This document shows positions 12,301 through 30,336 of a stretch of 64,000 nt of DNA, piece by piece; the first letter of the stretch is position 1; each line of letters opens with the position of its first letter. Source of the DNA: Methyloversatilis thermotolerans (GTDB lineage: Bacteria; Pseudomonadota; Gammaproteobacteria; Burkholderiales; Rhodocyclaceae). A program made the position numbers and the translations under genes. The stretch is taken from positions 3,423,430-3,487,429 of the forward strand of contig NZ_KB889967.1 in assembly GCF_000372885.1 (NCBI RefSeq), given 5' to 3'. The notes beneath the pieces were generated by a model. The model was not told the origin of the DNA, did not search any database, and was given only the letters and a program-made list of their open reading frames with translations.

Positions 12301-12416
12301 ATGCTTCGTGGCGGGCCTCCGGCCGCAGTCATCGCGCGCGTGACGCGGCCGGCGCGCTGTCGACGTCCGCCACGCTGTTACCCTATCTCCCGAAACGAAC
12401 TACCGGTCCGCCTCCC

Positions 12417-15400
12417 GTGTCCCGCAAGTCCTATCGTCCCCTGGCCGCCGCGCCGGACGCCGCCATCCGCCTGCGCGGCGTGCGGCAGAACAATCTGAAG
12501 AACCTCGATGTCGACTTTCCGCTCGGCAAGCTGACCGTGGTGACCGGCGTGTCCGGCTCCGGCAAGTCCTCGCTGGTGTTCGACACGCTGTACGCCGAAG
12601 GCCAGCGCCGCTATGTCGAAACCTTCTCGCCCTACGCGCGGCAGTTCCTGGACCGCATGGATGCGCCGCAGGTGGACCGCATCGAAGGCGTACCGCCGGC
12701 GATCGCCATCGACCAGACCAATCAGGTGCGCACCTCGCGCTCGACGGTCGGCACCATGACCGAACTGAACGACCACCTGAAGCTGCTGTTCGCCCGCGTG
12801 GCCACGCTGCACTGCCGCTGTTGCGGCGAGCCGGTGCAGGCCGACACAGCGGACCGCATCGCGCAGCGGATCGCCGAACGCGCCGCCGCGGCGGGCGACC
12901 CGCGGCTGGCGGTGACTGCGCCGGTGACCGTGCCGGACAACTTCACCGACGCCGAGGTACAGGGCTGGCTGGAACGCCAGGGCTACACCCGCATCCACGC
13001 GCGCGACGGCACGGTGCTGCACGTGGTGCAGGACCGCTTCCGCGCCGGCAACGCCGGCGAGTCGCGCATCGCCGAGGCAGTCGAAGCGGCGCTGAAGCTG
13101 GGTCACGGCCGCATGCATGTGCAGGTGCTGGACAGCGAGGGCGGCGAGCGCTGGGCCTTCTCGAACACGCTGCACTGCGCCGACTGCGACATCGCCTACA
13201 GCCCGGCCATGCCGGCCACCTTCTCGTTCAATTCGCCGATCGGCGCCTGCGAAACCTGCCGTGGCTTCGGCCGCGTGATCGGCATCGACTTCGGCCTGGT
13301 CATTCCGGACGGCCGCAAGACGCTGCGCGGCGGCGCGGTGAAGCCCTGGCAGACCGAGTCCTACAAGGAGTGCCAGACCGACCTGGAAAAACTCGCGCCG
13401 AAGTACGGCGTGCCGCTCGATGCAGCGTTCGACGAGCTGTCGGCGGAGCACCGGCAGTGGGTGCTCGAAGGCGACCCGAAGTGGAAGAGCTGGCAGAAGT
13501 CCTGGCCCGGCACCTGGTACGGCGTGCGTCATTTCTTCGAGTGGCTGGAAACCAAGGCCTACAAGATGCACATCCGCGTGCTGCTGTCGCGCTACCGGGC
13601 CTACACCGAGTGCCCGGCCTGCGGCGGCAGCCGGCTCAAGCCCGACGCCGCGCTGTGGAAGATCGAGGGGCAGTCGATACACGATCTGATGCGGCTTCCG
13701 GTGGTGAAGCTGCGCGCGATGATGGACGCGCTCGACCTGCCGCCGCCGCTCGATTCGGCCACCGAAGAACTGATGGCGGAAATCCGCACCCGACTGGGCT
13801 ATCTCTGCACCGTCGGCCTGGGCTATCTGAATCTCGACCGGCAATCGCGCACGCTGTCCGGCGGCGAAGTGCAACGCATCAACCTCACCACCGCGCTCGG
13901 CACTTCGCTGGTGAATACGCTGTTCGTGCTGGACGAACCGTCCATCGGCCTGCACCCGCGCGACATGGAACGGGTGATCGGCGTGATGCAGCGGCTGAAG
14001 GACGCCGGCAACACGCTGGTGGTGGTCGAGCACGACCCGCAGATCATGCGTCACGCCGACCGCCTGCTCGACATCGGCCCCGGCGCCGGCACGCGCGGCG
14101 GGAACATCGTGTTCGACGGCGCACCGGCGGCCATGGCCGGCGCCGACACGCTGACCGCCGACTATCTGGCCGGCCGTCGCAAGGTGGATGCCGCGCTCGG
14201 CAGCCGCCGGCCGGTCGATGATGTGACGCCGCGCCTGCTGCTGCGCGGCGCCCGTGCGCACAATCTGAAGAATGTCGACATCGCCATCCCGCTCGGCCGC
14301 CTGGTCGCGGTGACCGGCGTGTCCGGCTCCGGCAAGTCCACGCTGATCCAGGACGTGCTGCATCCGGCGCTGCTCAAGCACTACGGCCGGCCGACCGAAA
14401 CGGCCGGCGAGCACGACGCGCTCGAGGGGCTGGAACACATCGCCGACGTGGTGATGGTAGACCAGTCGCCGATCGGCAAGAGCGCGCGCTCCAATCCGGT
14501 TACCCATGTCGGCGCCTTCGACCCGGTGCGCGAACTGTTCGCGCTGCAGGCGGAGGCCAAACAGCGCGGCTATACCGCCGGCACTTTTTCGTTCAACGCC
14601 GGCAAGGGGCGCTGCCCGACCTGCGGCGGTACCGGTTTCGAACACGTCGAAATGCAGTTCCTGTCCGACGTGTACCTGCGCTGCCCGGACTGCGACGGCA
14701 CCCGCTACCGCGCCGAAGTGCGCGAAATCCGGCTCGACGGCCGCAGCATTTCCGACGTGCTGGCGATGACCGTGCGCGATGCGCTGGACTGGCTGCGCGA
14801 TCTGGCCGACCTCGAACCCAAGCTGCGCCGCCACGCGGACAACGCGGTGGCCGGCCTGCAGGCGCTGGTCGATGTCGGTCTCGACTACGTGACGCTGGGC
14901 CAGCCGGTGCCCACGCTGTCCGGTGGCGAGGCGCAGCGGCTCAAGCTGGCCGGTTTCCTGGCCGAGGCGGCGAACGTGAAGGGCGCCGAGGCGGGCAGGA
15001 AGGCCGACAAAAAGGCCGACAGCGGCAAGCTCTTCCTGCTCGACGAGCCGACCACCGGCCTGCACTTCGACGATATCGCGCGCCTGCTCGGCGCCTTCGC
15101 CAGGCTGCTCGACGCCGGCCACACGGTGCTGGTAATCGAACACAACCTCGACGTGATCGCCGCGGCCGACTGGCTGATCGACCTCGGTCCGGAAGCGGGC
15201 GAGGACGGCGGCCAGCTCGTGTTCGAAGGCACGCCGGCGCAGATCACGGCGTGCGTCACCTCGCACACAGGGCGGGCGCTGGCGGAGTACCGGCTGGCGG
15301 AGGTCTTTGCCCCTCACCCCGACCCTCTCCCCGTGATCGGGGAGAGGGAGAAGCGCGGGACTTCGGCTTCCAAGATCGGGGAGAGGGAGACGAGCGGGAC

Positions 15401-18155
15401 ACCCGCTTCCCTGAGCGTGCCGCGGAACGGACGTTCGGGCGACGGTTCGCTCCCTCTCCCGCATCAGCGGGAGAGGGTCGGGGTGAGGGAAGAGCCTGCA
15501 AGCTACGACCACGCTTCCAGCTTGCGCGCGCGCGCTGCGCACAGCATCGTTGTGCACCGGGCGCGCGAGCACAATCTGAAGAACATCGAGGTCGACATTC
15601 CGCGCGAGCGCTTCACCGTGGTGACCGGCGTATCCGGCTCCGGCAAGTCCACGCTGGCTTTCGACATCGTGTTCGGCGAGGGCCAGCGACGCTACCTCGA
15701 ATCGCTGAACGCCTATGCGCGCCAGTTCGTACAGCCGGAGAGCAAGCCGGACGTCGATGGCGTGTTCGGCATTCCACCGGCGGTGGCGATCGCCCAGCGC
15801 ACCAGCCGGGGCGGCCGCAAGAGCACGGTGGCGACGCAGACCGAGATCTATCATTTCCTGCGCCTGATGTACGTGAAGCTGGGCGTTCAGCACTGTCCGG
15901 ACTGCGGCTGCGCAATCGCGCCGCAGAGCGAGGACGCGATGGTGGCGCGCATCCTGCGCGAGCGGCGCGGCCAGCACATCGGTCTGCTGGCGCCGCTGGT
16001 GATCAACCGCAAGGGCTATTACACCGAACTGGCGCGCTGGGCGAAGTCGCACGGCCACACCCATCTGCGTGTCGATGGCGAATTCCTGCCCACCTCGCCG
16101 TGGCCGCGGCTCGACCGCTTCAAGGAACACACGATAGAACTGCCGATCCGCGATTTCGTCGTGAACGAACGCGACGAGCGCACGCTGCGCGATGCGGTGC
16201 GCCAGGCGCTGGAACACGGCAAGGGCGTGCTGCACCTGATGTCGCCGCTGGACCGGCTGGGGCAGCCGGATGCGCCGCTGCCCGCGGTGGAGGTGTACTC
16301 GACCCAGCGCGCCTGCCCGAGCTGCGGCACCGGTTTCGCCGAACTGGATCCGCGCCTGTTCTCGTTCAACTCGAAACATGGCTGGTGTCCGAAGTGCATG
16401 GGCACCGGCCTCAAGCTGCCGGGTTTCGATGCGGAACAGACGGGCGAGGAAGCCACCTGGAACGAGTGGCAGCAGGACGAGCCAGAAGAATGCCCGGCCT
16501 GCCACGGCGAGCGGCTGAATCCGGTGGCGCGCAACGTGAAGCTGTTCGGCCAGTCCATCGCCCGGCTCACGGCGCAGCCGGTATCGGCGCTGCAGTTGGC
16601 GATTGCCCGCTGGTCGCTCGAAGGCCGCGAAGGCGAAATCGCGCGCGACGTGATCGCGGAACTGAACAGCCGGCTGCATTTCCTGAGCGAGGTCGGCCTC
16701 GGCTATCTGTCGCTGGATCGTGCCGCGCCCACGCTGTCCGGCGGCGAGGCGCAGCGCATCCGGCTGGCGGCCCAGCTCGGCTCGAATCTGCGCGGCGTGT
16801 GTTACGTGCTGGACGAACCGACCATAGGCCTGCATCCGCGCGACAACCAAGTGCTGCTCGACACGCTGGTGAAGCTGCGCGACAAGGGCAATACGCTGCT
16901 GGTGGTCGAGCACGACGAGGACACGATCCTGCGCGCCGACCACGTGATCGACCTCGGCCCGGGCGCCGGCCGGCTCGGTGGCGAAGTGATCGCCGAAGGA
17001 CACGCCAGCGATCTGGCGAAGCAGCCGGAATCGATCACCGGCCGTTTCCTGGCGCGTCCGCTGGAACACAGCTTCAAGGCACGCCGACCGGTCGCCGACG
17101 ACACGCCTTCGCTCGTCGTGCGCGGCGCCACGCTGCACAACCTGAAGGGCATGGATGTGCGGGTGCCGCTCGGTCGGCTGGTCGTGATGACCGGCGTGTC
17201 CGGCTCCGGCAAATCGTCGCTCGCGCGCGACGTGCTGCGCGATGGCGTGGCACAGCGGCTGGGCGACCCGAAGGCGACACTCACCGGCTGCCGCGACATC
17301 GAAGGCTGGGGTGCGCTCGGCCGCGTGCTCGAAGTCGACCAGACGCCGATCGGCAAGACGCCGCGCTCCTGCCCGGCGACCTACATCGGCTTCTGGGATG
17401 CGATACGCAAGCTGTACGCAGACACGCAGGATGCGCGCGAGCGCGGCTTCACCGCCGCGCGCTTCTCGTTCAACACCGGTCCCGGCCGCTGCCCGGTGTG
17501 CGAGGGACAGGGCCTGCGGCAGATCGAAATGTCCTTTCTGCCGGACGTGCGGGTGCTGTGCGAAGCCTGCAATGGCGCCCGTTTCAACTCGGAAACGCGG
17601 GCGGTCATCTGGCGCGGCAAGAGCATTGCCGACGTGCTGGCGATGAGCGTGGACGAGGCAGTGGAGTTCTTCGCCGCCCACCGCAAGCTGGCCGACACGC
17701 TGAAGCTGATGCAGGAAGTAGGGCTGGGCTATCTGACGCTGGGCCAGCACAGCCCGACGCTATCCGGCGGAGAGGCGCAGCGCATGAAGCTGGTGACCGA
17801 ACTGGCCAAATCACCGTCCGATGCGAACGACCCTGCGAGCGCGCGGCGCGGTCGCGGCAATCCGCACACGCTGTACGTGCTGGACGAACCGACCACCGGC
17901 CTGCACATGGCCGACATCGCCAGACTGATCGGCGTGCTGCACCGGCTGGTCGATGCCGGCCATTCAGTGGTGGTGATCGAACACGACCTTGACCTGATGG
18001 CCGAGGCGGACTGGATCATCGATCTGGGTCCGGAAGGCGGGGGCCAGGGCGGACAGGTGATCGCCGCGGGCGCACCGGCGGATATTCTGTCCGCTGCAGC
18101 GCATTCGCACACGGCGCGCGAGCTTGCGCGCTTCCGCACGGCACGCGCCGGTTGA
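12417..18155 (+). CDS. uvrA: Double-length UvrA excinuclease subunit (two fused UvrA units)
   Basis: DNA damage-recognition ATPase of nucleotide excision repair, 1,912 residues instead of about 940. It is two complete UvrA units in one chain, with four Walker A sites all reading GVSGSGKS (near residues 45, 635, 1072 and 1592). Each unit has its own signature motif LSGGE(V/A)QR, the mid zinc module (CETCRGFG/CPACGGSR; CPKCMGTG/CPACHGER), the C-terminal zinc finger (CPTCGGTG..CPDCDGTR; CPVCEGQG..CEACNGAR) and a domain in the UvrB-binding position. The GTG at 12417 is used because the conserved sequence begins just after it. Long UvrAs are known in Burkholderiales and may coexist with a standard UvrA. 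The linker (about 965-1025) is translated from a palindromic repeat element. Confidence 0.92.
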   Translation: MSRKSYRPLAAAPDAAIRLRGVRQNNLKNLDVDFPLGKLTVVTGVSGSGKSSLVFDTLYAEGQRRYVETFSPYARQFLDRMDAPQVDRIEGVPPAIAIDQTNQVRTSRSTVGTMTELNDHLKLLFARVATLHCRCCGEPVQADTADRIAQRIAERAAAAGDPRLAVTAPVTVPDNFTDAEVQGWLERQGYTRIHARDGTVLHVVQDRFRAGNAGESRIAEAVEAALKLGHGRMHVQVLDSEGGERWAFSNTLHCADCDIAYSPAMPATFSFNSPIGACETCRGFGRVIGIDFGLVIPDGRKTLRGGAVKPWQTESYKECQTDLEKLAPKYGVPLDAAFDELSAEHRQWVLEGDPKWKSWQKSWPGTWYGVRHFFEWLETKAYKMHIRVLLSRYRAYTECPACGGSRLKPDAALWKIEGQSIHDLMRLPVVKLRAMMDALDLPPPLDSATEELMAEIRTRLGYLCTVGLGYLNLDRQSRTLSGGEVQRINLTTALGTSLVNTLFVLDEPSIGLHPRDMERVIGVMQRLKDAGNTLVVVEHDPQIMRHADRLLDIGPGAGTRGGNIVFDGAPAAMAGADTLTADYLAGRRKVDAALGSRRPVDDVTPRLLLRGARAHNLKNVDIAIPLGRLVAVTGVSGSGKSTLIQDVLHPALLKHYGRPTETAGEHDALEGLEHIADVVMVDQSPIGKSARSNPVTHVGAFDPVRELFALQAEAKQRGYTAGTFSFNAGKGRCPTCGGTGFEHVEMQFLSDVYLRCPDCDGTRYRAEVREIRLDGRSISDVLAMTVRDALDWLRDLADLEPKLRRHADNAVAGLQALVDVGLDYVTLGQPVPTLSGGEAQRLKLAGFLAEAANVKGAEAGRKADKKADSGKLFLLDEPTTGLHFDDIARLLGAFARLLDAGHTVLVIEHNLDVIAAADWLIDLGPEAGEDGGQLVFEGTPAQITACVTSHTGRALAEYRLAEVFAPHPDPLPVIGEREKRGTSASKIGERETSGTPASLSVPRNGRSGDGSLPLPHQRERVGVREEPASYDHASSLRARAAHSIVVHRAREHNLKNIEVDIPRERFTVVTGVSGSGKSTLAFDIVFGEGQRRYLESLNAYARQFVQPESKPDVDGVFGIPPAVAIAQRTSRGGRKSTVATQTEIYHFLRLMYVKLGVQHCPDCGCAIAPQSEDAMVARILRERRGQHIGLLAPLVINRKGYYTELARWAKSHGHTHLRVDGEFLPTSPWPRLDRFKEHTIELPIRDFVVNERDERTLRDAVRQALEHGKGVLHLMSPLDRLGQPDAPLPAVEVYSTQRACPSCGTGFAELDPRLFSFNSKHGWCPKCMGTGLKLPGFDAEQTGEEATWNEWQQDEPEECPACHGERLNPVARNVKLFGQSIARLTAQPVSALQLAIARWSLEGREGEIARDVIAELNSRLHFLSEVGLGYLSLDRAAPTLSGGEAQRIRLAAQLGSNLRGVCYVLDEPTIGLHPRDNQVLLDTLVKLRDKGNTLLVVEHDEDTILRADHVIDLGPGAGRLGGEVIAEGHASDLAKQPESITGRFLARPLEHSFKARRPVADDTPSLVVRGATLHNLKGMDVRVPLGRLVVMTGVSGSGKSSLARDVLRDGVAQRLGDPKATLTGCRDIEGWGALGRVLEVDQTPIGKTPRSCPATYIGFWDAIRKLYADTQDARERGFTAARFSFNTGPGRCPVCEGQGLRQIEMSFLPDVRVLCEACNGARFNSETRAVIWRGKSIADVLAMSVDEAVEFFAAHRKLADTLKLMQEVGLGYLTLGQHSPTLSGGEAQRMKLVTELAKSPSDANDPASARRGRGNPHTLYVLDEPTTGLHMADIARLIGVLHRLVDAGHSVVVIEHDLDLMAEADWIIDLGPEGGGQGGQVIAAGAPADILSAAAHSHTARELARFRTARAG
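15311..15489. repeat. MITE/REP-like element inside uvrA, 21-bp perfect inverted ends
   Basis: Bases 15311-15331 and 15469-15489 are perfect inverted copies of one another (21 bp, beginning CCCTCACCCCGACC). Each end carries its own hairpin (CTCTCCCC-GTGATC-GGGGAGAG and CTCTCCC-GCATCA-GCGGGAGAG). Between them lies a direct repeat of about 39 bp starting GATCGGGGAGAGGGAGA (15336 and about 15375). The element is read through in frame and encodes the familiar repeat-derived peptide PHPDPLP...GERE. Such elements are usually intergenic. Confidence 0.88.
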
Positions 18156-19695: not shown

Positions 19696-22275
19696 GTGAC
19701 CGGAACTGAAACCTTGCTGCCCCATATGAGGGGCGTGCTCGCCTGCGAGCGCGAACTTGCCGAGCTGCGGCTGACCTGGCGCCTGATCGAAACCACCGCC
19801 AAGATGGTGTGTCCGGCCGAAGCCAAGACCATATTGCCGGCCATGGCCAGTACGCGTGAAGCGTTCGGACAACTGGAATCGGATCTTGTGCGCGCGCTCG
19901 CGGCGGAGAATGTGCGCAAGGTGGCGCTGCAGTTGTCGGCGCGGGCACAGGCGGTGGTCGACGTCGTCGTGCGCAATCTGTACGAGCGCACTGCCGATGT
20001 CGGTTTCCTGTCGACCGACGCAGACATCTGTCGCTTCCTGATGGAGGATGCCGGAGACCGCGAACTGCTCGAAGCGCGGCTGCACGAATACATCCGCAAA
20101 TACACCGTCTACGACGGCATTTTCGTGCTCGATCACCGGGGCGATGTGGCAGCGGCGATAGGCGGGGCAAGCAGTGCGCGTCTGGAGCATGCGCTGTTCG
20201 AACGCGCGCTGCACGCGCAGGGGCATGTCGAGCATTTCGGCCACAGCACGCTGTTGCCGGATCGCGAGCGGGCGCTGCTGTACGCGCACCGTATCGAATG
20301 CGAGGGGCGGGCGCTCGGTGTGCTGGTGCTGTCCTTTCGTTTCGACAACGAAATGGCGGGCATTTTCGCCACCTTCCGCCGGCCGCGCGACCGCGCCGTC
20401 ATGCTGTTGCTGGATGCCGGCGGACGCGTCATCGCCAGCAGCGATCCGGACCATGTCCCCTTGGGCCGCAGCCCGGATAACGAGAGGGACGCTTCAGGCG
20501 GCGGACTGGTGGAGTTCGGCGGTCGCGAATACATCGTGTGTACCCGTGAAGCCACCGGTTACCAGGGCTATGCCGGCCCGGGCTGGCGCGGCCAGGTCAT
20601 GGTGCCGGCCGACACCGCCTTCCGCGACGAGAAGGTGGCGGGCGACGTCCCGGCCGACGGGTCCGACTGGGCTCTGCAATCCGGCGAGCTGATGGCGATC
20701 GAGGCCCAGGCAGGCGCGATCAAGGACGCGCTGAACCGTGTCGTGTGGAACGGCCAGGTCATGGCGGGCGGACGCCGCGGCGATTCGCTGAAACTGAAAT
20801 CCATGCTGCAGCAGATCAGCGAAACCGGCGAACGCATGCGCGCCGTTTTTTCAGGAGCGCTCGCCACGCTGTCCGACACGGTGCACAGCACCACGCTGCT
20901 CGATCTTCAGTTCGTGTCGCGGCTCATGATGGATGTGATGGACCGCAATCTGTACGAACGCGCCAACGACTGCCGCTGGTGGTCGCTCGCGCCCGCGCTG
21001 CGTGCCGGTCTTGCGGGCGGACGGCCGGACGCGCACATGCTCGGCCGGCTGCTGGACGACATCAACCGGCTCTACACCGTCTACGACAGGTTGTTCGTGT
21101 TCGACGAACAGGGCTGCATCGTGGCGTGCAGCAATCTGTCCGGTGCGGCGGAGCGCACACTGGGTCGGCATGTCGATGCTGCGCTGCTCGATGCGGTACG
21201 GCGCCTGCCCGATACGCAGTCCTATACGGTGACTGCGTTCGAGCCGACGCCATTGCATCGCGGCGAACATACTTACATCTACTGCGCGGCGGTGCGCGCG
21301 CCGGACGACGACGCGCGCGTGGTCGGTGGCATTGGCATCGTGTTCGAATCCGGCCGCGAATTCCGCGCCATGCTGGGTGAGCTGTTGCCGCAGCGCGAAG
21401 GGGTATGGGCTGCCTTCTGCGAACCGGACGGCAGGGTGATCGCCAGCACCCGGGCCGACCTGCCGCCGGGCGCCCGGCTTCCGCTGGGCGGGCTGGCGCA
21501 GGGGCTGGCCGCGGGTGCGAGTCGACACGCGGTCGACGAACTGGCTGGCACACGTCACAGCATAGGCATCGCCGCCTCTGCGGGTTACCGCGAATACAAG
21601 ACCACAGGCGACTACCGTAACGATGTGCTGGCGGTGGTCGCCATGCCCTTGCCCGGGGCTCGCAGTGCAAGTGTGTCGCTGGACGAACTGGCGGCCGCCT
21701 ATGAGGTGGACGTGAGAGAGGGTGAAGGCGAGGAATTCGCCCTGTTTCGTCTCGACGACCGCCATCTCGCGGTCACCGCACAGCGCGTGCTGGAAGCGGC
21801 CGAGCCAGACCGTGTGCGTTGCTTCGGCAGCGGCGAAGGACTGGTCGCCGGTGTGCTGCAACTGGATGAAGGCGTGCGCGCCGAACATGTGCCGGTGATC
21901 CATCTGCGTGCCTTCTTCGACCTGCCGCTGCAGCCCGGTCGAGGTCACGTGGTGGTGACACAGTGCGCGCGCGGCCGCCTCGGCCTCATCGTCGACGACC
22001 TGCTCACCGTAGCCGAATTCGGGCCGGACAACGTGCGCCCGGTTCCGGACATGCTCACCGCACGCTTCCGCTGGCTGGAACGCCTCATCATCACCGGGCG
22101 CGACCGGCCGCTGGCGACCGTGCTGGATCTGGATGCGCTCTACGACATGCTGCGTGAGCGCATGCGCGGCGAGCTGATCGATCCGGCCCTGCTCGAACAG
22201 GCCGGTCATGGCGGCGCACAGCCGCCTGTGCCGTCCCTTACGCCACGACTGGCGAGCGCTGCGTCAGGCGGGTGA
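19696..22275 (+). CDS. CheW-domain protein with duplicated Cache-like sensor modules
   Basis: 859-residue signalling protein with no transmembrane segment or signal peptide visible. The first 650 residues hold two related sensor modules. Each has an RNLYER motif (about residues 94 and 418) and, about 40 residues later, YTVYD-x-(I/L)FV-x-D (about 135 and 459), followed by a PAS/Cache-like sheet with (G/D)GRVIAS. The C-terminal part (about 675-835) is a CheW-like domain (GLIVDDLLTVAEFGPDNV) that would dock to a CheA kinase. The start is GTG at 19696, preceded by GGAG at 6-9 bp; no better start exists. Its 3' end overlaps the convergent flavoprotein gene by 38 bp. It probably couples a cytoplasmic signal to chemotaxis arrays without being a classic receptor. 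Confidence 0.85.
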   Translation: MTGTETLLPHMRGVLACERELAELRLTWRLIETTAKMVCPAEAKTILPAMASTREAFGQLESDLVRALAAENVRKVALQLSARAQAVVDVVVRNLYERTADVGFLSTDADICRFLMEDAGDRELLEARLHEYIRKYTVYDGIFVLDHRGDVAAAIGGASSARLEHALFERALHAQGHVEHFGHSTLLPDRERALLYAHRIECEGRALGVLVLSFRFDNEMAGIFATFRRPRDRAVMLLLDAGGRVIASSDPDHVPLGRSPDNERDASGGGLVEFGGREYIVCTREATGYQGYAGPGWRGQVMVPADTAFRDEKVAGDVPADGSDWALQSGELMAIEAQAGAIKDALNRVVWNGQVMAGGRRGDSLKLKSMLQQISETGERMRAVFSGALATLSDTVHSTTLLDLQFVSRLMMDVMDRNLYERANDCRWWSLAPALRAGLAGGRPDAHMLGRLLDDINRLYTVYDRLFVFDEQGCIVACSNLSGAAERTLGRHVDAALLDAVRRLPDTQSYTVTAFEPTPLHRGEHTYIYCAAVRAPDDDARVVGGIGIVFESGREFRAMLGELLPQREGVWAAFCEPDGRVIASTRADLPPGARLPLGGLAQGLAAGASRHAVDELAGTRHSIGIAASAGYREYKTTGDYRNDVLAVVAMPLPGARSASVSLDELAAAYEVDVREGEGEEFALFRLDDRHLAVTAQRVLEAAEPDRVRCFGSGEGLVAGVLQLDEGVRAEHVPVIHLRAFFDLPLQPGRGHVVVTQCARGRLGLIVDDLLTVAEFGPDNVRPVPDMLTARFRWLERLIITGRDRPLATVLDLDALYDMLRERMRGELIDPALLEQAGHGGAQPPVPSLTPRLASAASGG

Positions 22276-23410
22276 GCATGGCCGCGCGTTCGCGGATGCG
22301 GCCGCCCTGCAACACGAATCCGAGCACATCGTCCGATGCGTCGGCGAGAAAGACGCCGCGCAGACCGTCAGAGTCATCCGCCTCGACGACCCACCGGCCG
22401 GCATCCGCAGGGGCGGGCGCACACATCAGTGTCGGGCAGGCGGGGGTCTTGATCGTGACCGGCATGGGTGGGTAGTGCACCGCCGTGGGCGTGCCGCACA
22501 GCGTGGCCGCGAGCGCCCGCGCACCATGCATGATGGGCAGCAGGAAAGGTTGCAGCCGGCCGTCGATCTGCACACAGTCGCCCAGCGCGAACACATGGGG
22601 CGCCGAAGTGCGCAGGCAGTCGTCGGTCACAATGCCGGCCGCGGTCGCGATGTCGGCGCTGCCCGGCAGACCGGCCTCCACATGCAGACCGATGGCGGAT
22701 ATGACGACATCGACTTCTTCCTCGATCGCACCCGCGCCGACGCGGTAGCCGCCCGGACCTCGCACCACGCGGTCCGGTGCCTGTCCCAGGTGCAGCGCGA
22801 CGCCGGCGCGCGCGAGCGCGCCCGCAATGCGCTGCGATGCGAAGTCCGGCAGCAGGCGGTGCAATGGCCGCGATGCGCTGTCGAACAGTGCGACCGCATG
22901 GCCGCCGGTGCGCAGATCGAGCGCCAGTTCGCAGCCGACCAGCCCGGCACCGATCACTGCCACCCGCGCATCGAGCCCGAGACGGGCGCGCAAGCGACGG
23001 TAGTCGTCCAGGGAATTCACCGCGATCGCGTCGGCGCCGCCGTCTCCGCTCACCTGCAATGGCCGTGGCGAGGCGCCGGTGGCAAGCACCAGTGCCTCGT
23101 AGCGCAGCATGCCGCGGTCGGTGTGCAACAGCCGCGACGGTACGTCGATGGACAGCGCGCGCGTGTGCACGAGCAGCCGGACGTCCAGCGCCTCCGCCAT
23201 GGCCGCGGCGTTCTGGCTCACCAGGGCCTGTACCGGACGCTGGTCCGCGTGCGCGGTGGACAAGGCCGGCTTGGAATACACATCGCCACTGTCCGCGGTC
23301 ACGATGGTGAGCGCACGCCGCGCATCGCGGCGGCGCAGTTCGCGCACCAGGGACAGCGCCGCGTGACCGCAGCCGACGACGACGATGCCGGCGTCGCTCT
23401 CAGGCGGCAT
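22238..23410 (-). CDS. FAD/NAD(P)-dependent oxidoreductase, rubredoxin reductase-like
   Basis: 390-residue two-dinucleotide-binding flavoprotein. The FAD site is IVVVGCGHAALSLV at the N-terminus, the NAD(P) site is VAVIGAGLVGCELA (about 149-162), and the second FAD motif is APHVFALGDCVQIDG (about 282-296). Size and layout match rubredoxin-NAD+ reductases of the AlkT/RubB group. A rubredoxin gene lies in the same operon, so it most likely transfers electrons from NAD(P)H to that rubredoxin. The ATG at 23410 overlaps the OsmC-like stop by 11 bp (coupled translation). It is the last gene of the five-gene sigma-54 operon. Confidence 0.88.
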   Translation of the reverse strand: MPPESDAGIVVVGCGHAALSLVRELRRRDARRALTIVTADSGDVYSKPALSTAHADQRPVQALVSQNAAAMAEALDVRLLVHTRALSIDVPSRLLHTDRGMLRYEALVLATGASPRPLQVSGDGGADAIAVNSLDDYRRLRARLGLDARVAVIGAGLVGCELALDLRTGGHAVALFDSASRPLHRLLPDFASQRIAGALARAGVALHLGQAPDRVVRGPGGYRVGAGAIEEEVDVVISAIGLHVEAGLPGSADIATAAGIVTDDCLRTSAPHVFALGDCVQIDGRLQPFLLPIMHGARALAATLCGTPTAVHYPPMPVTIKTPACPTLMCAPAPADAGRWVVEADDSDGLRGVFLADASDDVLGFVLQGGRIRERAAMLTRLTQRSPVVA

Positions 23411-23945
23411 CGACGCGCTCGATGCTGAACGGGATGGGATTGCGCATCGTATTGGCGACCGGGGAGAAGTAGTTGGCGGTCTTCACGATGTCATCCATCT
23501 CCTCGGCCGAGCCCTCGCCCTCCACGATCACCTTGACGCGGATGTTCTGGAAGCCCATCTGCTCCGGCTTGCGCTCGGCGCCGCCGGCACCCCACGCGGC
23601 GGTGTTGCCGATGTCCGCCTCAAGGAACACCTCCAGCCGGCTGAGCCGGATCTGGCGATAGGTCGCGACCGCGGTGATGCCCACGGCGAGGCAGCCACCG
23701 AGCGCCGACAGCACGATCTCGCCGGGCGCCGGCGCGGTGTTCTCGCCGAACAGATGCAGCGGTTCGTCGACCACCACCGGGTTGTGGATGCCGACGAAGC
23801 TCCACGAGCGGTACTGACCCTGCATCACGGTGTGCACCTTGTTGATGCCCTTGCGCTCGGGATTCTCACGCCCGGCGGCGGCGAACTTCAGCAGACCTTC
23901 GCGATCGATCGGGCGCAGATAGGTCTTGACGGTTTCGGTACTCAT
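23400..23945 (-). CDS. OsmC-like peroxiredoxin-family protein
   Basis: 181-residue cytoplasmic protein of the OsmC/Ohr fold (FGENTAPAPGEIVLSALGGCLAVGITAVA, then ANYFSPVANTMRNPIPF). The first reactive Cys is present in LGGC. The position normally held by the second Cys (CPVxNTL) is Ser in FSPVANT, so a classic two-cysteine peroxidase cycle is not expected. It begins 33 bp after the binding-protein stop and overlaps the reductase start by 11 bp. Within an electron-transfer operon it may scavenge peroxides formed by the flavoprotein, or bind a thiol or acyl intermediate. Both ideas are inference. Confidence 0.85.
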   Translation of the reverse strand: MSTETVKTYLRPIDREGLLKFAAAGRENPERKGINKVHTVMQGQYRSWSFVGIHNPVVVDEPLHLFGENTAPAPGEIVLSALGGCLAVGITAVATYRQIRLSRLEVFLEADIGNTAAWGAGGAERKPEQMGFQNIRVKVIVEGEGSAEEMDDIVKTANYFSPVANTMRNPIPFSIERVDAA

Positions 23946-23978
23946 TGCATGCTCCTGTGGGTGAGGGGGCGGACCGGC

Positions 23979-25313
23979 TCAGAGGCTGGCCTGCAGGGAT
24001 TTGAGATAGGCATCCGGCTTGGCCGGATCGAAGGTCTTGCCCAGAATCGTGTGGGTGCGATAAGTGTCGCCCGGCGGCGCCAGGCCCAGTTCGGCCATGC
24101 GCTTGCGCGCGTCGGTGGCGAGGAATACGCGCTCGGCGATGTCGCGGAAGTTCACGTCGCCCTTTACATAGCCCCAGCGCTTCATCTGGGTGAGCATCCA
24201 CACCGCCATCGAGTGCCAGGGGAAGGGGTCGAAGGCGATGCGGTTCGGTTCGTTGCGCACCTGTCCCAGCCCGTCGGCGAAGCGCCCGGTCAGCACCTGT
24301 TCCACCACGGTCAGGGGCTGGTTGAGGTAGTTGGCCGGGGCGATCAGGTCGGCCACCTGCTTGCGGTTCTCCGCCTTGTTGGCGTAGGCGGTGGCGCGTA
24401 TCAGCGCGCGCACCAGGGCGGCGAAGGTGTTCGGATTGGCGCGCACGAACTCGTCGCTCGCCGCGAAGGCGCAGCACGGGTGGTTGTCCCAGATTTCGCT
24501 GGTGAGCAAGTGGATGAAGCCGACGTTGTCATAGACCGCGCGCTGGTTGAAGGGCTCGGCAACGATGAAGCCGTCGATCGCACCCGAGCGCAGGTTGGAC
24601 ACCATGTCGGGCGGCGCCATCACGCGCAGTTGCACGTCGCGGTCCGGATCCAGGCCGTGCGCGGCCAGATAGTGGCGCAGCAGGAAGTTGTGCATCGAGT
24701 AGTCGAATGGAATGGCGAAGCGCATGCCCTTCCAGTTCTTCGGATCGCGGTTCTCGCGGTGCTTCGTGTGCAGCGTGATCGCGTTGCCATTGGTGTTTTC
24801 CATCACCGGCATCACCATCGGCACCGAGGTCGAGCCCAGGCCCATCGATATCGCCAGCGGCATCGGTGACAGCATGTGCGAAGCGTCGTACTCCCTGGAC
24901 AGCACCTTGTCGCGCACCACCGCCCAGCCCGCCGTTTTCTGAAGGTCGACCTTCAGCCCCTCCTTGTCGTAGAAGTGGGCGGCGCCGGCCAGGATGATGG
25001 GTGTGGCGCAGGTGATGGGCAGGAAGCCCACCTTGAGGTCCTTTTTTTCCAGCGGCAGCTTTTCGTCCGCCATCGCTTCCAGCGCGGAAAACGGGAACAG
25101 GGCCGACAGGGCGGCCATCGCGCCGGACGCCCCTACCGCGCGCAGGAAGCCGCGACGCTGTCGCGCGTCCGGCACGATCGCGCGCAGCGCGGCCGACTGC
25201 AGGATGCCGGCATCGAGCGAGGTGGCGCGGGCGTGTTCGGCTTCCGAGGCATGGCGGCCGCAGCGGCAGCCGGCATGGGCGTGGGGCGTATCGTCGGATC
25301 GATCAGATGGCAT
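23979..25313 (-). CDS. Tat-exported NrtA/CmpA-like substrate-binding protein
   Basis: 444-residue periplasmic binding protein of the nitrate/bicarbonate/sulfonate (NrtA/CmpA/SsuA) superfamily. A long N-terminal stretch with HAHAGCRCGRH precedes a twin-arginine signal RQRRGFLRAVGASGAMA. The mature part has KVGFLPITCATPIILA, MAPPDMVSNLRSGAIDGFIV and EIWDNHPCCAFAASDEFV, typical of this group. The start at 25313 is chosen because GGGAG lies 7-8 bp upstream. No permease or ATPase gene is nearby, so either the transporter is encoded elsewhere or the protein acts as a sensor or periplasmic binder. The ligand is unknown. It sits 60 bp after the rubredoxin gene in the sigma-54 operon. Confidence 0.87.
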   Translation of the reverse strand: MPSDRSDDTPHAHAGCRCGRHASEAEHARATSLDAGILQSAALRAIVPDARQRRGFLRAVGASGAMAALSALFPFSALEAMADEKLPLEKKDLKVGFLPITCATPIILAGAAHFYDKEGLKVDLQKTAGWAVVRDKVLSREYDASHMLSPMPLAISMGLGSTSVPMVMPVMENTNGNAITLHTKHRENRDPKNWKGMRFAIPFDYSMHNFLLRHYLAAHGLDPDRDVQLRVMAPPDMVSNLRSGAIDGFIVAEPFNQRAVYDNVGFIHLLTSEIWDNHPCCAFAASDEFVRANPNTFAALVRALIRATAYANKAENRKQVADLIAPANYLNQPLTVVEQVLTGRFADGLGQVRNEPNRIAFDPFPWHSMAVWMLTQMKRWGYVKGDVNFRDIAERVFLATDARKRMAELGLAPPGDTYRTHTILGKTFDPAKPDAYLKSLQASL

Positions 25314-25373
25314 GGCGGAACTCCCGGGTCGAAGAGGTGCGAGGTATCGTTGCGTGATGCGAGCGGGAGGCAC

Positions 25374-25553
25374 TCAGAAATCGAGTGGCTCGAAGTCGGT
25401 CTTGGTGACGCCGCACTCCGGGCAGTACCAGTCATCCGGGATGTCCTCGAACGCGGTGCCGGGTGCGATGCCGCCTTGCGGATCGCCTTGTTCCGGGTCG
25501 TAGATCCAGTTGCACACCTTGCATATCCAGGCACGCGTGACAGTCGTGTTCAT
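25374..25553 (-). CDS. Rubredoxin
   Basis: 59-residue one-iron electron carrier. Both Cys pairs are present: CKVC (residues 11-14) and CPEC (44-47), with the conserved [10 protein letters not shown] and [14 protein letters not shown] segments of rubredoxins. A single iron is held by the four Cys. The ATG at 25553 is 11 bp after the stop of the acyl-CoA dehydrogenase-like gene. It probably shuttles electrons between the rubredoxin reductase-like flavoprotein (22238-23410) and the operon's first enzyme. Confidence 0.95.
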
Positions 25554-25564
25554 GGTGGCTCCGG

Positions 25565-26710
25565 TCAGGCGGGAACGGCGGCGCGTGCCGCTTCGATGCG
25601 CGCGATCTCCCGGCGCAGGTGCTTGGTGGCCGGTGTGACGATGGCGATGAAATAGGCTTCGCGCAGGCGTCGCTGTGCCGGGCTGCGCAGCAGGTAGCCC
25701 TTGGCGCCCATGTGCAGCATTGCCGCCTGCGCGGCGCGCAACGCCAGTTCGCCGCCCGCCAGCCTCAGCTTCAGGATGTCCAGAACGTCGGCGCTGCCGG
25801 CATCGACCTGCAGCGCCAGCGCCCGCGCCTGCTCGCGCGCCGCGTCCAGCGCGATGCGCAGCGGGCCGACCTGATCGTCCAGATACTGGTTCACATGGGC
25901 ATGCGTGCGGTTGGACTGTTCCATCAGGCGGATGCAGGCTTCGACCAGGCCCAGTCCCATGCCCATCTGGCCGTGGATCATGCCGGGCTTGATGCGTTTC
26001 ACATACTCGGCCGATTGTTCGGGGTGGGCGAGCACATGGGCATCCGGCACGAAGGTGTCGCGGAAATGGCAGGCCAGCGTGCGCGTGCCCTCCAGTCCCA
26101 CGAAATGTGCGCAGTCCACCAGGCGGAAACCCTCCTGCGCGCAATCGATGAGCATGAACATGAGTCCGTCCTGCGTGCCGTCGCGCAGTACCGGACAACC
26201 GGTCACGAACACGTGGTCGGGACCGAGGTTGGATACCCAGGGCAGCACACCATTGACGCGGTAGCCACCGTCGACCCGCACGGCCGAGAGCCGGTAGTCC
26301 TCGATGCCATCTCCCGACTTCAGCGTGTTGGACAGACCGGTGCCGGCGAGCCGTTCGCCGCTGAGGACGCGCGGCAGCAGGCTGCGCTTGAGCCCTTCGT
26401 TGTCGGACTGCTGGATGTAGCGTGCGCAGGCGGTCTGGCACCACACGGTGAAGGCGGTGGATACGCATTCGCGAGCCACCTCGTCCATCACGTCTATCAC
26501 ATGGGCGAGGCCCGCATCCGGGCCGGCGTGTGCCGCGCCCCGGTAGCCGCCCGCCGCACCGAGTGCACGCAGGAACTGCTCGGGGTATTCCGCCTTCTGG
26601 TCGATGTCCAGCACCTTGGGGGCGAGCGACGAAGCGATCAGTGCGCGTATGGCCGACAGGTCATCGGCAGCGGCGGGGAAGGCGCGTTCGGCAAGTGCGC
26701 TGGCGGACAT
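25565..26710 (-). CDS. Acyl-CoA dehydrogenase-fold flavoprotein
   Basis: 381-residue member of the acyl-CoA dehydrogenase superfamily (N-terminal helical, middle beta and C-terminal four-helix domains). Recognisable are [36 protein letters not shown] (middle domain) and [21 protein letters not shown]. The superfamily also contains flavin-dependent monooxygenases (DszC, SfnB and nitroalkane oxidase types). With rubredoxin and its reductase as operon partners and no other beta-oxidation gene, a redox enzyme acting on a non-CoA substrate is at least as likely as a true dehydrogenase. The start ATG has AGGAG 8 bp upstream. It is the first gene after the sigma-54 promoter. Confidence 0.85.
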
Positions 26711-26750
26711 TCAACTCTCCTGCGTGACGATCTGTGTTGCAGACGCTTTC

Positions 26751-26765
26751 GCAAGTGCCGTGCCA
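26751..26765 (-). promoter_or_regulatory. Sigma-54 (-24/-12) promoter of the rubredoxin operon
   Basis: The minus strand reads TGGCACGGCACTTGC, matching the sigma-54 consensus TGGCAC-N5-TTGC at every conserved base, with correct GG-GC spacing. The predicted start near 26740 gives a leader of about 30 nt to the ATG at 26710. A sigma-54 activator gene ends 71 bp upstream. Confidence 0.9.
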
Positions 26766-26836
26766 GACTGGAAAGTTGTTGCGGATCAAGCGGTTGTCGA
26801 TTCCGCCTGCCCGGGCGCGCGGGTGCCAATGTTCAC

Positions 26837-28456
26837 TTATTGTTTACACAATGTCGACTTTATCGATGCCACGTCTATCCCCAGCACCTGTATCCGGTAA
26901 TTCAACTGACGCAGCGTCAGATCGAGGCTGCGCGCCGCGCGCGACTTGTTGCCTCGGTGCTGCTGCAGCGCCTGCGCGATGCGCGCCGCTTCGTCGGATG
27001 CCACCGGCTGATAGTCGCGGATGACCGAGTGCGCGAGGCCACCGGGACTGCGCGCAACCGATGCCGCCTGCGCCGGTGCTTCGTTGGCGAGCACGGCCGC
27101 GATGTCGGACGCGCCGACCAGGTCGCTGCGCGTGAGCAGCACGACACGTTCGACCACGTTGTAGAGCTGACGGATGTTTCCGGGCCAGTCGTGGGTTTCC
27201 AGCAGGGCGAGCGCATCGGCCGGCACGGTGATGTTGCGCTGGTGGCGCTGGTTCAGTTGCGACACGAACACCCGCACGAGCTGGCGGATGTCGCCCGGCC
27301 GCTCGCGCAGTGCCGGCAACCGTATCGGGATCACGTTGAGCCGGTAGAACAGGTCGAGCCGGAAGCGGCCGCCCTGCACCAGGGCCATGAGGTCCTGGTG
27401 GGTGGCGGCGACGATGCGCACATCCACCGGTATCTCGACACGTCCACCCAGCCGCTCGATCACGCGCTCCTGCAGCGCGCGCAGCAGCTTCACCTGCACC
27501 GGCAGCGGCAGATCCCCGATCTCGTCCAGGAACAGCGTGCCGCCGCTGGCCTGCTCCAGCCGGCCGATGCGCCGCTCGCTGGCGCCGGTGAAGGCGCCCT
27601 TCTCATGGCCGAACAGCTCCGCCTCGAACAGCGTTTCGGGAATGGCCGCGCAATTCACCTTCACGAAGGGCTGATCGCGGCGCAGGCTCTGCAGGTGCAG
27701 CGCGCGCGCGAACAGCTCCTTGCCGGTGCCGGATTCTCCCAGCAGCAGCACGGTGGCGTCGGTGGGCGACACCTGTTCGAGCTGGCCGAGCGCGGCGCGC
27801 AGCGCGGGCGAATCGCCGACGATGCCCCAGTTCGCGCCCGGCGACGCGCGATGTTCGAGCGCGGCCTTCAGGGTGCGGTTCTCCTGCTGCAGATCGGCCG
27901 TGCGCTTCTCCACCAGTTCGTGGATGCGGTAGATCTGGCCCATCAGTTCCGCCACCGTGCGCAGCACCTCGATGTCGGCGCCCAGAGCGCGCTTGCGCGA
28001 ACGCAGCCGGTGCACGCCCAGCACGCCTATGGTCCTGCGGTTGGCGCGCACCGGCAGCGCGATGAAGGACACGGTTTCATCCGGCAGCGTGCTGCGCGCG
28101 ACCGCGCGAGCGAGATAGACCGGCTCGTCGTCGATGTCCTGCACGATCTGCAGCTCGCCGGTCTGCATCACGCGGCCGCTCACACCCTCGCCCGGCGCAT
28201 AGCGGCCGCGCGCGACTTCCGCCCGCGTCAGTCCGTAGGCCACGCGTATCGCAAGTTCTCCGGTGGCCGCGTCGGGCATCATGAAGCGGCCGCGGTTCAG
28301 TCCCAGCAGTTCCGACATGAGGTGAAGGATTTCACGCACCGCGCGATCCGGCGCCAGCCCTTTGCCGACCAGCCGTATGCTTTCCCGCAGCAGCAGTTGT
28401 TCCTGTTCCACGAGGTGTTCGTGGTCGGTGGAGGATGCGTTGCGGGTGCGGGTCAT
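26837..28456 (-). CDS. Sigma-54-dependent transcriptional activator, GAF-AAA+-Fis
   Basis: 539-residue enhancer-binding protein of the NifA-like layout. An N-terminal GAF domain (about 15-190, with GEGVSGRVMQTGELQIVQDI) is followed by a coiled linker and an AAA+ domain with Walker A GESGTGKE, the sigma-54 contact loop GAFTGA and [12 protein letters not shown]. The C-terminal Fis-type helix-turn-helix is NKSRAARSLDLTLRQLNYRI. It lacks the Cys pattern of oxygen-sensitive NifA seen in the gene at 60670. The ATG at 28456 is preferred since earlier in-frame codons give a low-complexity, non-conserved leader. It is on the same strand and directly upstream of the operon, which it very probably activates. 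The GAF domain would sense the inducer. Confidence 0.9.
   Translation of the reverse strand: MTRTRNASSTDHEHLVEQEQLLLRESIRLVGKGLAPDRAVREILHLMSELLGLNRGRFMMPDAATGELAIRVAYGLTRAEVARGRYAPGEGVSGRVMQTGELQIVQDIDDEPVYLARAVARSTLPDETVSFIALPVRANRRTIGVLGVHRLRSRKRALGADIEVLRTVAELMGQIYRIHELVEKRTADLQQENRTLKAALEHRASPGANWGIVGDSPALRAALGQLEQVSPTDATVLLLGESGTGKELFARALHLQSLRRDQPFVKVNCAAIPETLFEAELFGHEKGAFTGASERRIGRLEQASGGTLFLDEIGDLPLPVQVKLLRALQERVIERLGGRVEIPVDVRIVAATHQDLMALVQGGRFRLDLFYRLNVIPIRLPALRERPGDIRQLVRVFVSQLNQRHQRNITVPADALALLETHDWPGNIRQLYNVVERVVLLTRSDLVGASDIAAVLANEAPAQAASVARSPGGLAHSVIRDYQPVASDEAARIAQALQQHRGNKSRAARSLDLTLRQLNYRIQVLGIDVASIKSTLCKQ
26839..26852. promoter_or_regulatory. Palindrome, possible activator-binding site
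   Basis: ATTGT-N4-ACAAT lies about 75-85 bp upstream of the -24 element and inside the last codons of the activator gene. Position and symmetry suit an upstream activator site. The motif does not match a binding site I know. Confidence 0.4.
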
Positions 28457-28701: not shown

Positions 28702-30336
28702 ATGCAGATACGTAATCTTTCCATCCGCGCCCAGCTCGGCTTCCTCGCGCTCGTCACCTGCGGCCTGCTGGGCGTGGCGCTGGCCGGTGCGCTGTGGCAG
28801 ATGAAGGTCAGCGGCACGCGTCTGTCCGCTTTCATCGACAACGAACTGGCGGTCGAGCGCCATGTTGTGCAGGCCTATGCCCAGGGCCTGCAGATGGGGC
28901 AGGCGCTGCGCAACATCCTGCTCGATCCGGCCAACAAGAAGGCTTACGACAATCTCGACCGCGCACGCAAGGCCTTCGATGAGGCGCTGCCCCTCATCCG
29001 TCAGCACGCCACCCTGCTTGATGGCGGAGCGGATGCCGCTGCCCGCATGGAGGCACTGGCCAAGGCCTGGGTGCCGCTGCAGGCGCAGGTGGTCGCGCAG
29101 GTTCAGCCGGGCGATGTGGCCACTGCACGCGACACCCTGGTGCGCGCGGAAACGCCCGCCTGGCGGGAAATGCGCGCCGAACTGATGAAACAGAGCGAAC
29201 ACCTGCAGAAACTGGCGCTGGCGATGCGCTCGGATTCGGCGGCGGCACTGGAACGGGGCATGTTCGTCGTGGCCGGGCTCGGTCTGGTCGCGCTGTGCGC
29301 CTGTGTCGGCGCATCCCTCATGGTCGTCCGCTCGGTGCTCGGCCGTCTTGGCGGCGAACCCGCCTACGCCGCCGAAGTGGCGCGACGCATTGCCGTCGGC
29401 GATCTGCAGCAGCCGGTTGTCTGCGGGCGCGGTGCGAGCCAGAGCATGCTGGCCGCGATGAAGGACATGCAGGACTCCCTGCAGGCCATGATACGGGGCA
29501 TACGCGCCGAAGCAGCGCGCGTGGTCAGCGCGTCGGAAGGTCTGCACGCGGATCAGGGGCAGGTGGCCAGCGCATCCGATATGCAGAGTGAAGCCACGCA
29601 GTCCATCGCTGCGTCGGTGGAACAGATGACGGCCAGCATTGCCGTCGTGGCCGACCACGCGACCGAAGCCAACCAGCTCGGCATCAACACCGAGGCGGAA
29701 GTGCGTGCCAGTGTTGTCGTGATCAACGAAGCGGTGGATGCGATCAGCCGCGTCGCCGAACGGATGACGGCGTCTGCCGCGGTGGTGGCCGAACTGGCCG
29801 AAAGCGCAGCGAGCATTTCGCAGATCACCGGGGTGATCGAGGAAATCGCCGATCAGACCAATCTGCTCGCGCTGAATGCCGCGATCGAGGCGGCGCGTGC
29901 CGGTGAAACCGGACGGGGTTTCGCCGTTGTGGCCGACGAGGTGCGCAAGCTGGCCGAGCGCACCGGCAAGTCGACGCGACAGATCACGGAAATGATAGGC
30001 CGGGTGCAGGCCAATACGCGCGAAGCCATCGCCAGCATGGAAGAAGGACGAGAACTGGCCGGACGCGGCGCCGACAGCGCCGGCCGGGCGCGCGAGGCGC
30101 TGGCGTCGCTGGAACATGGTGCCACGCGGGTGAGCGCTGCGGTGGGTGCCATCAACGACGCGCTGTCCGAACAGCGCCATGCCAGCACCCAGATCGCGCA
30201 GGGCGTGGAACGCATTGCCGGCATGAGCGACGAGGCGCGCGCATCGACCAGCCGCTCGGCCGCGCGTGCCGAGGAACTCAAGCAGCTTGCCGACGGACTG
30301 GAACACACGGTGAGCCGCTTCCGCATCGCCGGCTGA
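28702..30336 (+). CDS. Methyl-accepting chemotaxis protein with four-helix periplasmic sensor
   Basis: 544-residue chemoreceptor. It has a membrane segment (about 10-32), a short all-helical periplasmic domain (about 33-190) containing [20 protein letters not shown] as in TarH-like four-helix sensors, and a second membrane segment (about 192-214). A HAMP region follows, then a signalling domain with the tip [20 protein letters not shown] (about 385-405). It ends in SRFRIAG without a CheR-tethering pentapeptide. A sigma-28-like promoter stands about 70 bp upstream, tying it to the flagellar regulon. The ligand is unknown; the NILLDP motif is frequent in four-helix sensors. Confidence 0.95.

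Follow-up and report, generated by a model that had tools for sequence, protein, structure and literature searches.

Gene organization of the locus

Within a 64-kb stretch of DNA from Methyloversatilis thermotolerans (the window, by which we mean the whole stretch analysed), we have characterized a compact redox operon and the sigma-54-dependent activator gene beside it. The six genes, all on the minus strand, lie at the positions given by a first-pass annotation of the same DNA. P0006 (26837..28456) encodes the activator, of 539 amino acids, with GAF, AAA+ and Fis-type helix-turn-helix domains (PF00158, PF01590, PF02954), and a -24/-12 (sigma-54) promoter, TGGCACGGCACTTGC, with the exact TGGCAC-N5-TTGC pattern is found on the same strand at 26751..26765. 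P0001 (25565..26710) encodes a flavoprotein of 381 amino acids which, according to family models, a structure model and alignments, has the acyl-CoA dehydrogenase (ACAD) fold without its catalytic glutamate. It is followed by P0002 (25374..25553), a rubredoxin of 59 amino acids; by P0003 (23979..25313), a periplasmic binding protein of the CynA/NrtA/CmpA type (444 amino acids), placed by family models, sequence identity and a tree; by P0004 (23400..23945), an OsmC-family protein of 181 amino acids with a single invariant cysteine, Cys85; and by P0005 (22238..23410), an NADH:rubredoxin reductase-like flavoprotein of 390 amino acids. From P0001 to P0005 the spacing is 11, 60 and 33 bases, and the last two genes overlap by 11 bases. 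Each family assignment is backed by Pfam or NCBIfam models, and P0003 carries a Tat (twin-arginine translocation)-like signal, RRGFL, read by eye alone. The coordinates, family models and motif scan thus bear out the earlier description of five packed genes, an activator and a perfect -24/-12 site.

Conservation of the gene set and its promoter

A profile of 19 homologues searched against genome contigs found 586 relatives, the best 80 of which were kept as loci; a further 20, taken from whole genomes and plasmid records, bring the set to 100 loci, in which one identical place is counted twice (L023 and L084). With only the top 80 of the 586 retained, fractions of gene content apply to near relatives. 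Open-frame picking misses small genes, and a tblastn recount was therefore used for rubredoxin (80/100 loci) and OsmC (83/100 loci). Neighbours were counted in the 73 loci flanked on each side by 5 kb or more, taking genes no more than 8.5 kb from the flavoprotein gene. OsmC was present in 61 of these loci, a sigma-54 activator in 56, a CynA-type binding protein in 44, the reductase in 42 and cyanase in 36, followed by a second type of binding protein, here called SBP8 (32), a DUF302 protein (18), rhodanese (8) and an AhpD-type protein (5). Synteny is strong across the loci, and the five-gene set with its activator is conserved as a block and not as scattered homologues, which was the check named in the first-pass annotation.

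Relatives with 66-70% identity include Azonexus (L035, L037), Dechloromonas (L040, L041), L043 and Tepidiphilus (L044). There the genes run in one direction in the order activator, flavoprotein, rubredoxin, CynA, transporter genes, cyanase, OsmC and reductase. Separate permease and ATPase genes were called in L037, L043 and L044, whereas L035, L040 and L041 showed just an ATPase-containing frame. Unlike this version, the operon in the window contains no permease, ATPase or cyanase gene. The earlier statement that no permease accompanies the operon is therefore true of the window but not of its close relatives, and because these carry the gene within the operon, its absence is a local feature. 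Two variants were also seen. Neisseria holds a reduced set of AhpD-type protein, flavoprotein and rubredoxin (L111:9299-11892, L109:9193-11595, L017:7258-9329), and a small DUF302 protein frequently follows the flavoprotein (L093:11137-11517 and 25 other loci).

The exact promoter pattern occurs once in the 64 kb, against a mean of 0.18 in shuffled sequence; 17 of 100 shuffles also give one, so that the site by itself is just suggestive. It gains weight from its conservation upstream of related flavoprotein genes. Of 65 such loci that include an activator gene (close strains counted), 57 carry a site with no more than one mismatch, 22 of them exact, in the stretch running from 1.6 kb upstream of the called start of the flavoprotein gene to 150 bases within it; on the opposite strand the count is 4/65 (1 exact). 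The best NCBIfam model for P0006 is NifA (TIGR01817), but its score of 458.7 bits is below the cut-off of 528.85, and we rejected an identity as nitrogenase regulator.

Loss of the catalytic glutamate in the flavoprotein

The predicted structure of P0001 (pLDDT 92.5, built from 57 sequences) has the ACAD fold, and its ten leading matches in the PDB are all dehydrogenase-type (TM-score 0.82-0.84). Both the fold and the nearest PDB sequences would suit an ordinary acyl-CoA dehydrogenase operon acting on a short acyl-CoA, but the residues do not. Where dehydrogenases carry the catalytic glutamate, Thr359-Pro360 is invariant in 70/70 sequences; the dehydrogenase stretch MRDAKITQIYEGTNQIQR places its glutamate opposite Thr359 in an ungapped alignment and opposite Pro360 in the program's gapped one. 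No glutamate or aspartate occurs anywhere in residues 352-362 in any of the 70 sequences, and at the alternative position known from isovaleryl-CoA dehydrogenase (247 in P0001) each of them has Ala, Leu, Gly, Met, Ser or Asn. The positions tested are those we take to be catalytic, MCAD-376 and IVD-254. Furthermore, the Arg-x-x-Phe-Gly stretch seen in the aligned dehydrogenases has given way to a T-H-x-H-V-N-like stretch (Asn274 in 70/70, His272 in 64/70), so the flavin could be FAD or FMN (flavin adenine dinucleotide or mononucleotide). Trp158, Ser160 and Cys82 are likewise invariant in the 70 sequences, and P0001 has no visible export signal.

The surroundings of the gene, where anion transporters and cyanase recur, also argue against the dehydrogenase explanation. 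Among the twelve largest neighbour clusters (at least 14 loci each; smaller clusters were partly identified) there were no beta-oxidation or electron-transfer flavoprotein genes. We consider an acyl-CoA dehydrogenase operon very improbable, and the earlier judgement that a standard fatty-acid role is unlikely is upheld. The equivalog scores of P0001 are far under the cut-offs for DszC (21.3 of 850 bits) and HsaA (35.2 of 450 bits), and sulfone or thiophene oxidation of the SfnB/DszC kind was rejected on the DszC score. AlkB-like alkane hydroxylation was also rejected, as neither the AlkB nor the NorV family is found among the identified recurrent neighbours. Both refuting conditions named in the first-pass annotation fall away, given the strong synteny and the missing catalytic glutamate.

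Rubredoxin, reductase and the OsmC-family protein

P0002 exceeds the cut-offs of both rubredoxin models, PF00301 and NF045768 (95.3 bits, cut-off 90). P0005 combines a Pyr_redox_2 domain (PF07992) with a C-terminal rubredoxin-binding domain (PF18113), and scores 295.6 bits with the NorW model, under its cut-off of 392. The usual direction for such partners is from NADH through the reductase and rubredoxin to the flavoprotein.

Ohr/OsmC peroxidases use two catalytic cysteines. In the OsmC-family protein Cys85 is invariant (79/79 sequences), but the SPVAN stretch, where we would expect the second one, has no conserved cysteine; Ser161 and Asn165 are present there in 79/79. As the conserved second cysteine is missing from the 79 sequences, P0004 is not a standard two-cysteine peroxidase. 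In nine loci (L017, L021, L058, L059, L061, L062, L079, L109, L111) an AhpD-type CxxC protein replaces OsmC, which suggests a replaceable thiol function, perhaps peroxide removal or sulfur carriage. Counter to this idea, L064, L066, L067 and L068 have neither protein in the available stretch, and L090 has both.

Association with cyanase

To place the operon in a wider context, we surveyed 369 genomes of the window's class, counting a flavoprotein relative at E<=1e-60. Such a relative was found in 13 genomes and cyanase in 51. All 13 flavoprotein genomes, including that of the window, have cyanase, compared with 38 of the 356 others (Fisher 1.6e-12, computed, like our other Fisher values, over genomes as independent, with phylogeny ignored). 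The identity of the cyanase cluster was checked on L094 (TIGR00673, 178 bits, cut-off 113). Similarly, 41 of the 80 loci were traced to 40 genomes, of which 32 have cyanase. As a control, we sampled 20 of the 38 genomes with cyanase but without the flavoprotein; tblastn found no flavoprotein, OsmC or rubredoxin near cyanase in any of the 20 loci. A full CynABD transporter is present in five of them, and the protein in the CynA position there shares 58-62% identity with P0003. In the binding-protein tree P0003 groups with the CynA clade, within which two distant NrtA rows sit on long branches. In seven genomes without the flavoprotein, the activators next to cyanase match P0006 at only 38-44% identity (318-440 residues aligned), and some flavoprotein loci carry activators 52-60% identical to such proteins.

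The genome of the window also has a separate cynABDS (G000:C1:877442-881064), whose CynA is 60% identical to P0003 and which has no -24/-12 site (at most two mismatches) directly upstream of cynA. A DJ-1/PfpI family gene is found directly upstream of this cynABDS (L118:8669-9379); the superfamily includes isonitrile hydratases and transcription regulators.

The link to cyanase would also suit cyanide, the main rival to thiocyanate as substrate. A cyanide monooxygenase, in which the reduced flavoprotein and O2 would oxidize CN- to OCN- for cyanase with electrons from NADH via rubredoxin, takes a single chemical step. HCN needs no importer, which suits the loci with the cyanate-type transporter only, the clade of the window included, and a rhodanese gene in 14/100 loci (within 8.5 kb in 8/73) fits cyanide defence. 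On the other hand, the OsmC and AhpD-type partners would be unneeded except against peroxide, and the second transporter, described below, points to an imported anion. Passages of PMC11049912 describe a cyanide monooxygenase as not experimentally demonstrated. Altogether, we regard cyanide as a rather unlikely substrate.

A transporter in common with thiocyanate hydrolase loci

SBP8, the second binding-protein family near the flavoprotein, is found in methanotrophs, Thioalkalivibrio, Halomonas, Rhodobacteraceae and others. It belongs to the SsuA/TauA/SaoX superfamily as a remote member and falls under every model cut-off. Its relatives (E<=1e-60) occur at 17 places in 16 of the 369 genomes, and these places were compared with those of nitrile-hydratase-type alpha subunits (PF02979), which were found in 24 genomes: ten in a first tier, nine in a second and five with weak matches only, left out of both. 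Of the first tier, one protein was tested, and it passes the nitrile hydratase model. In the second tier, two proteins pass the thiocyanate hydrolase gamma model TIGR03887, and the protein compared with the PDB has ScnC of 2dd4 as its best match; we therefore refer to this tier as scnC.

At seven of the nine scnC loci the neighbouring ATP-binding cassette (ABC) binding protein best matches SBP8 (54-57% identity); the remaining two lie on contigs of 5 and 8 kb, and no SBP8 was found elsewhere in their genomes. Conversely, eight of the 17 SBP8 places have the flavoprotein, seven are beside scnC and two are neither. Seven of the flavoprotein-side places are close to the flavoprotein gene in genomes passing its threshold, and the eighth is G324, whose neighbouring divergent flavoprotein and OsmC were found afterwards. 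In one of the seven, G241, the flavoprotein is split, with residues 2-116 beside OsmC on the SBP8 contig and residues 114-373 at the start of another contig; the two fragments are presumed to be one gene. The two other places are an orphan gene (G032) and a contig end in G247 (L180:5666-10579), where the SBP8 relative is accompanied by a permease, an ATPase and a cytochrome c gene; the contig may have broken off within a thiocyanate dehydrogenase locus. With the preset thresholds, the flavoprotein or scnC is present in 13/16 SBP8 genomes, compared with 8/353 others. A link to nitrile hydratase was tried and rejected: none of the 16 SBP8 genomes has nitrile hydratase, and none of the ten nitrile hydratase genomes has SBP8. 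Six of the nine scnC genomes have cyanase. The genome of the window itself has no PF02979 (ScnC-type subunit), and scnC was found in 0/30 genomes of the genus of Thioalkalivibrio ALJ16, where the controls were likewise silent.

In the binding-protein tree (31 of 42 SBP8 and 29 of 57 CynA sequences), the scnC-linked proteins form a single clade among the SBP8 rows, with a support of 99 in the Shimodaira-Hasegawa-like approximate likelihood-ratio test (SH-aLRT). On the flavoprotein tree (74 rows, near-copies omitted, loci labelled by the content of the retrieved stretch), SBP8 and CynA-only loci interleave, with six forced changes for SBP8. The transporter appears to have been switched repeatedly, as if one enzyme family served both, and because the flavoprotein family appears with both transporters, the clue to thiocyanate may be extended to the operon of the window.

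The presence of the same transporter at thiocyanate hydrolase loci argues for an imported anion, thiocyanate first, and so against cyanide. It also bears on a third explanation, that the substrate is another small cyano-, thio- or nitrogen compound (isothiocyanate, an organic thiocyanate, cyanamide or a sulfonate-like anion) and cyanate a product or a co-handled nutrient. The distant position of SBP8 within its superfamily would permit this, the cyanase-free branches may employ the enzyme differently, and the distribution is patchy (13/369 genomes). We nevertheless think it unlikely that one of these compounds is the substrate, as the transporter accompanies thiocyanate hydrolase (7/9 genomes) and never nitrile hydratase (0/10).

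A proposed role in thiocyanate oxidation

We propose, with about even confidence, that the operon is an inducible pathway oxidizing thiocyanate (SCN-) to cyanate (OCN-) for cyanase, the choice of substrate resting on the genome context of relatives. The GAF activator would turn the operon on through sigma-54. The binding protein would capture the anion for a CynBD-type ABC importer, encoded elsewhere in the genome and within the operon in close relatives. NADH would reduce rubredoxin via the reductase, rubredoxin would reduce the ACAD-fold flavoprotein, and the reduced flavoprotein would use O2 to oxidize SCN- at sulfur. The OsmC cysteine could then take the oxidized product, so that cyanate leaves and the sulfur stays as a persulfide, to be passed to rhodanese in some relatives; alternatively, OsmC could remove leaked peroxide. 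Finally, cyanase would split cyanate to ammonia and CO2. A fully specified version, in which a rubredoxin-fed ACAD-fold thiocyanate monooxygenase makes hypothiocyanite, OsmC captures it as Cys-S-SCN, and hydrolysis gives cyanate and a cysteine persulfide for rhodanese, is doubtful in that exact form.

Several observations weigh against this proposal. The P0001 model is nearest to ordinary acyl-CoA dehydrogenases. The clue to thiocyanate is drawn from relatives whose flavoproteins are about 35-61% identical; the genome of the window has no SBP8 at E<=1e-60, scnC occurs in just 1 of the 13 flavoprotein genomes, and the fork nesting the scnC clade within SBP8 is supported at 90 only. Rubredoxin was not found by tblastn in 20/100 loci, which include nearly all of the methanotroph/Azonexus SBP8 branch and the alphaproteobacterial L014, L015, L018 and L019. 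Moreover, 8 of the 40 flavoprotein genomes have no cyanase (L061, L062, L070, L079, L090, L091 and the Neisseria L109 and L111); they include two Neisseria and two Halomonas, and some are metagenome bins of unstated completeness.

The first-pass annotation had suggested an inducible redox pathway acting on a small nitrogen- or sulfur-containing compound. For a conserved sigma-54-linked redox operon this was right in kind, but the links to cyanate and to thiocyanate hydrolase had been missed.

Other features of the window

Chemotaxis-type genes flank the operon and may be unrelated to it: the product of 19696-22275 (+) has a CheW-like domain and matches Cache weakly, below threshold, and that of 28702-30336 (+) has a methyl-accepting chemotaxis signalling domain. 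Further away, 12216-18155 (+) encodes a UvrA-like protein of 1979 amino acids, apparently, on a reading by eye, a head-to-tail fusion of two UvrA copies.

Comparison with known systems

In the open-access literature searched, we found no paper on this gene set, none mentioning both cyanase and rubredoxin, and none in which thiocyanate, cyanate, nitrogen source and acyl-CoA dehydrogenase appear together; among the matches listed, none tied the flavoprotein or OsmC to cyanate or thiocyanate. Passages of PMC2907700 list a CynS and hold nothing on this operon, and those of PMC5596200 name OsmC, cyanase and acyl-CoA dehydrogenase in unrelated contexts. Thiocyanate is described as a nitrogen source for a number of heterotrophs (PMC5328954), and an uncharacterized enzyme was initially proposed for its conversion to cyanate (PMC5778177). 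The gene set described here is a concrete, widely conserved and expressible candidate for this step, and if our proposal is correct, a gene would be assigned to a step shown in reviews with no enzyme attached, with relevance to the treatment of mining and coke wastewater.

Within the ACAD fold, a new reaction would be added, and rubredoxin would be a new electron supply for an oxygenase of this kind. The group D flavin monooxygenases (DszC, HsaA and HpaB-like proteins) already use the fold for reactions other than acyl-CoA oxidation, but their partner is a flavin reductase, whereas here it is rubredoxin. Rubredoxin and rubredoxin reductase feed AlkB or the flavorubredoxin of NorVW; the operon has an electron pair of the same families, and the terminal partner is an ACAD-fold protein.

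The cyanate assimilation cluster cynFABDS of Pseudomonas pseudoalcaligenes CECT5344, for which sigma-54 activation is known, resembles the operon of the close relatives in its CynA-type binding protein, ABC transporter, cyanase, sigma-54 promoter and Fis-type activator, but as described in passages of PMC6627978 it is without flavoprotein, rubredoxin or OsmC. Similarly, the thiocyanate hydrolase loci of the Thiobacillus thioparus type, scnABC, share the SBP8-type ABC transporter with many flavoprotein loci, and a NitT/TauT ABC transporter is reported behind scnABC (PMC5328954). The hydrolase itself differs, being a cobalt enzyme that yields carbonyl sulfide and ammonia (PMC5328954). The thiocyanate dehydrogenase (TcDH) pathway resembles our proposal in that its product is cyanate and its loci carry ABC genes and a sigma-54-type regulator (PMC5328954). 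However, TcDH is described as a Tat-exported copper enzyme (PMC5328954), whereas the candidate here is a flavoprotein with no visible export signal and with rubredoxin. A rubredoxin-fed thiocyanate monooxygenase, if confirmed, would thus be a third enzymatic route for thiocyanate, beside the hydrolase and the copper dehydrogenase.

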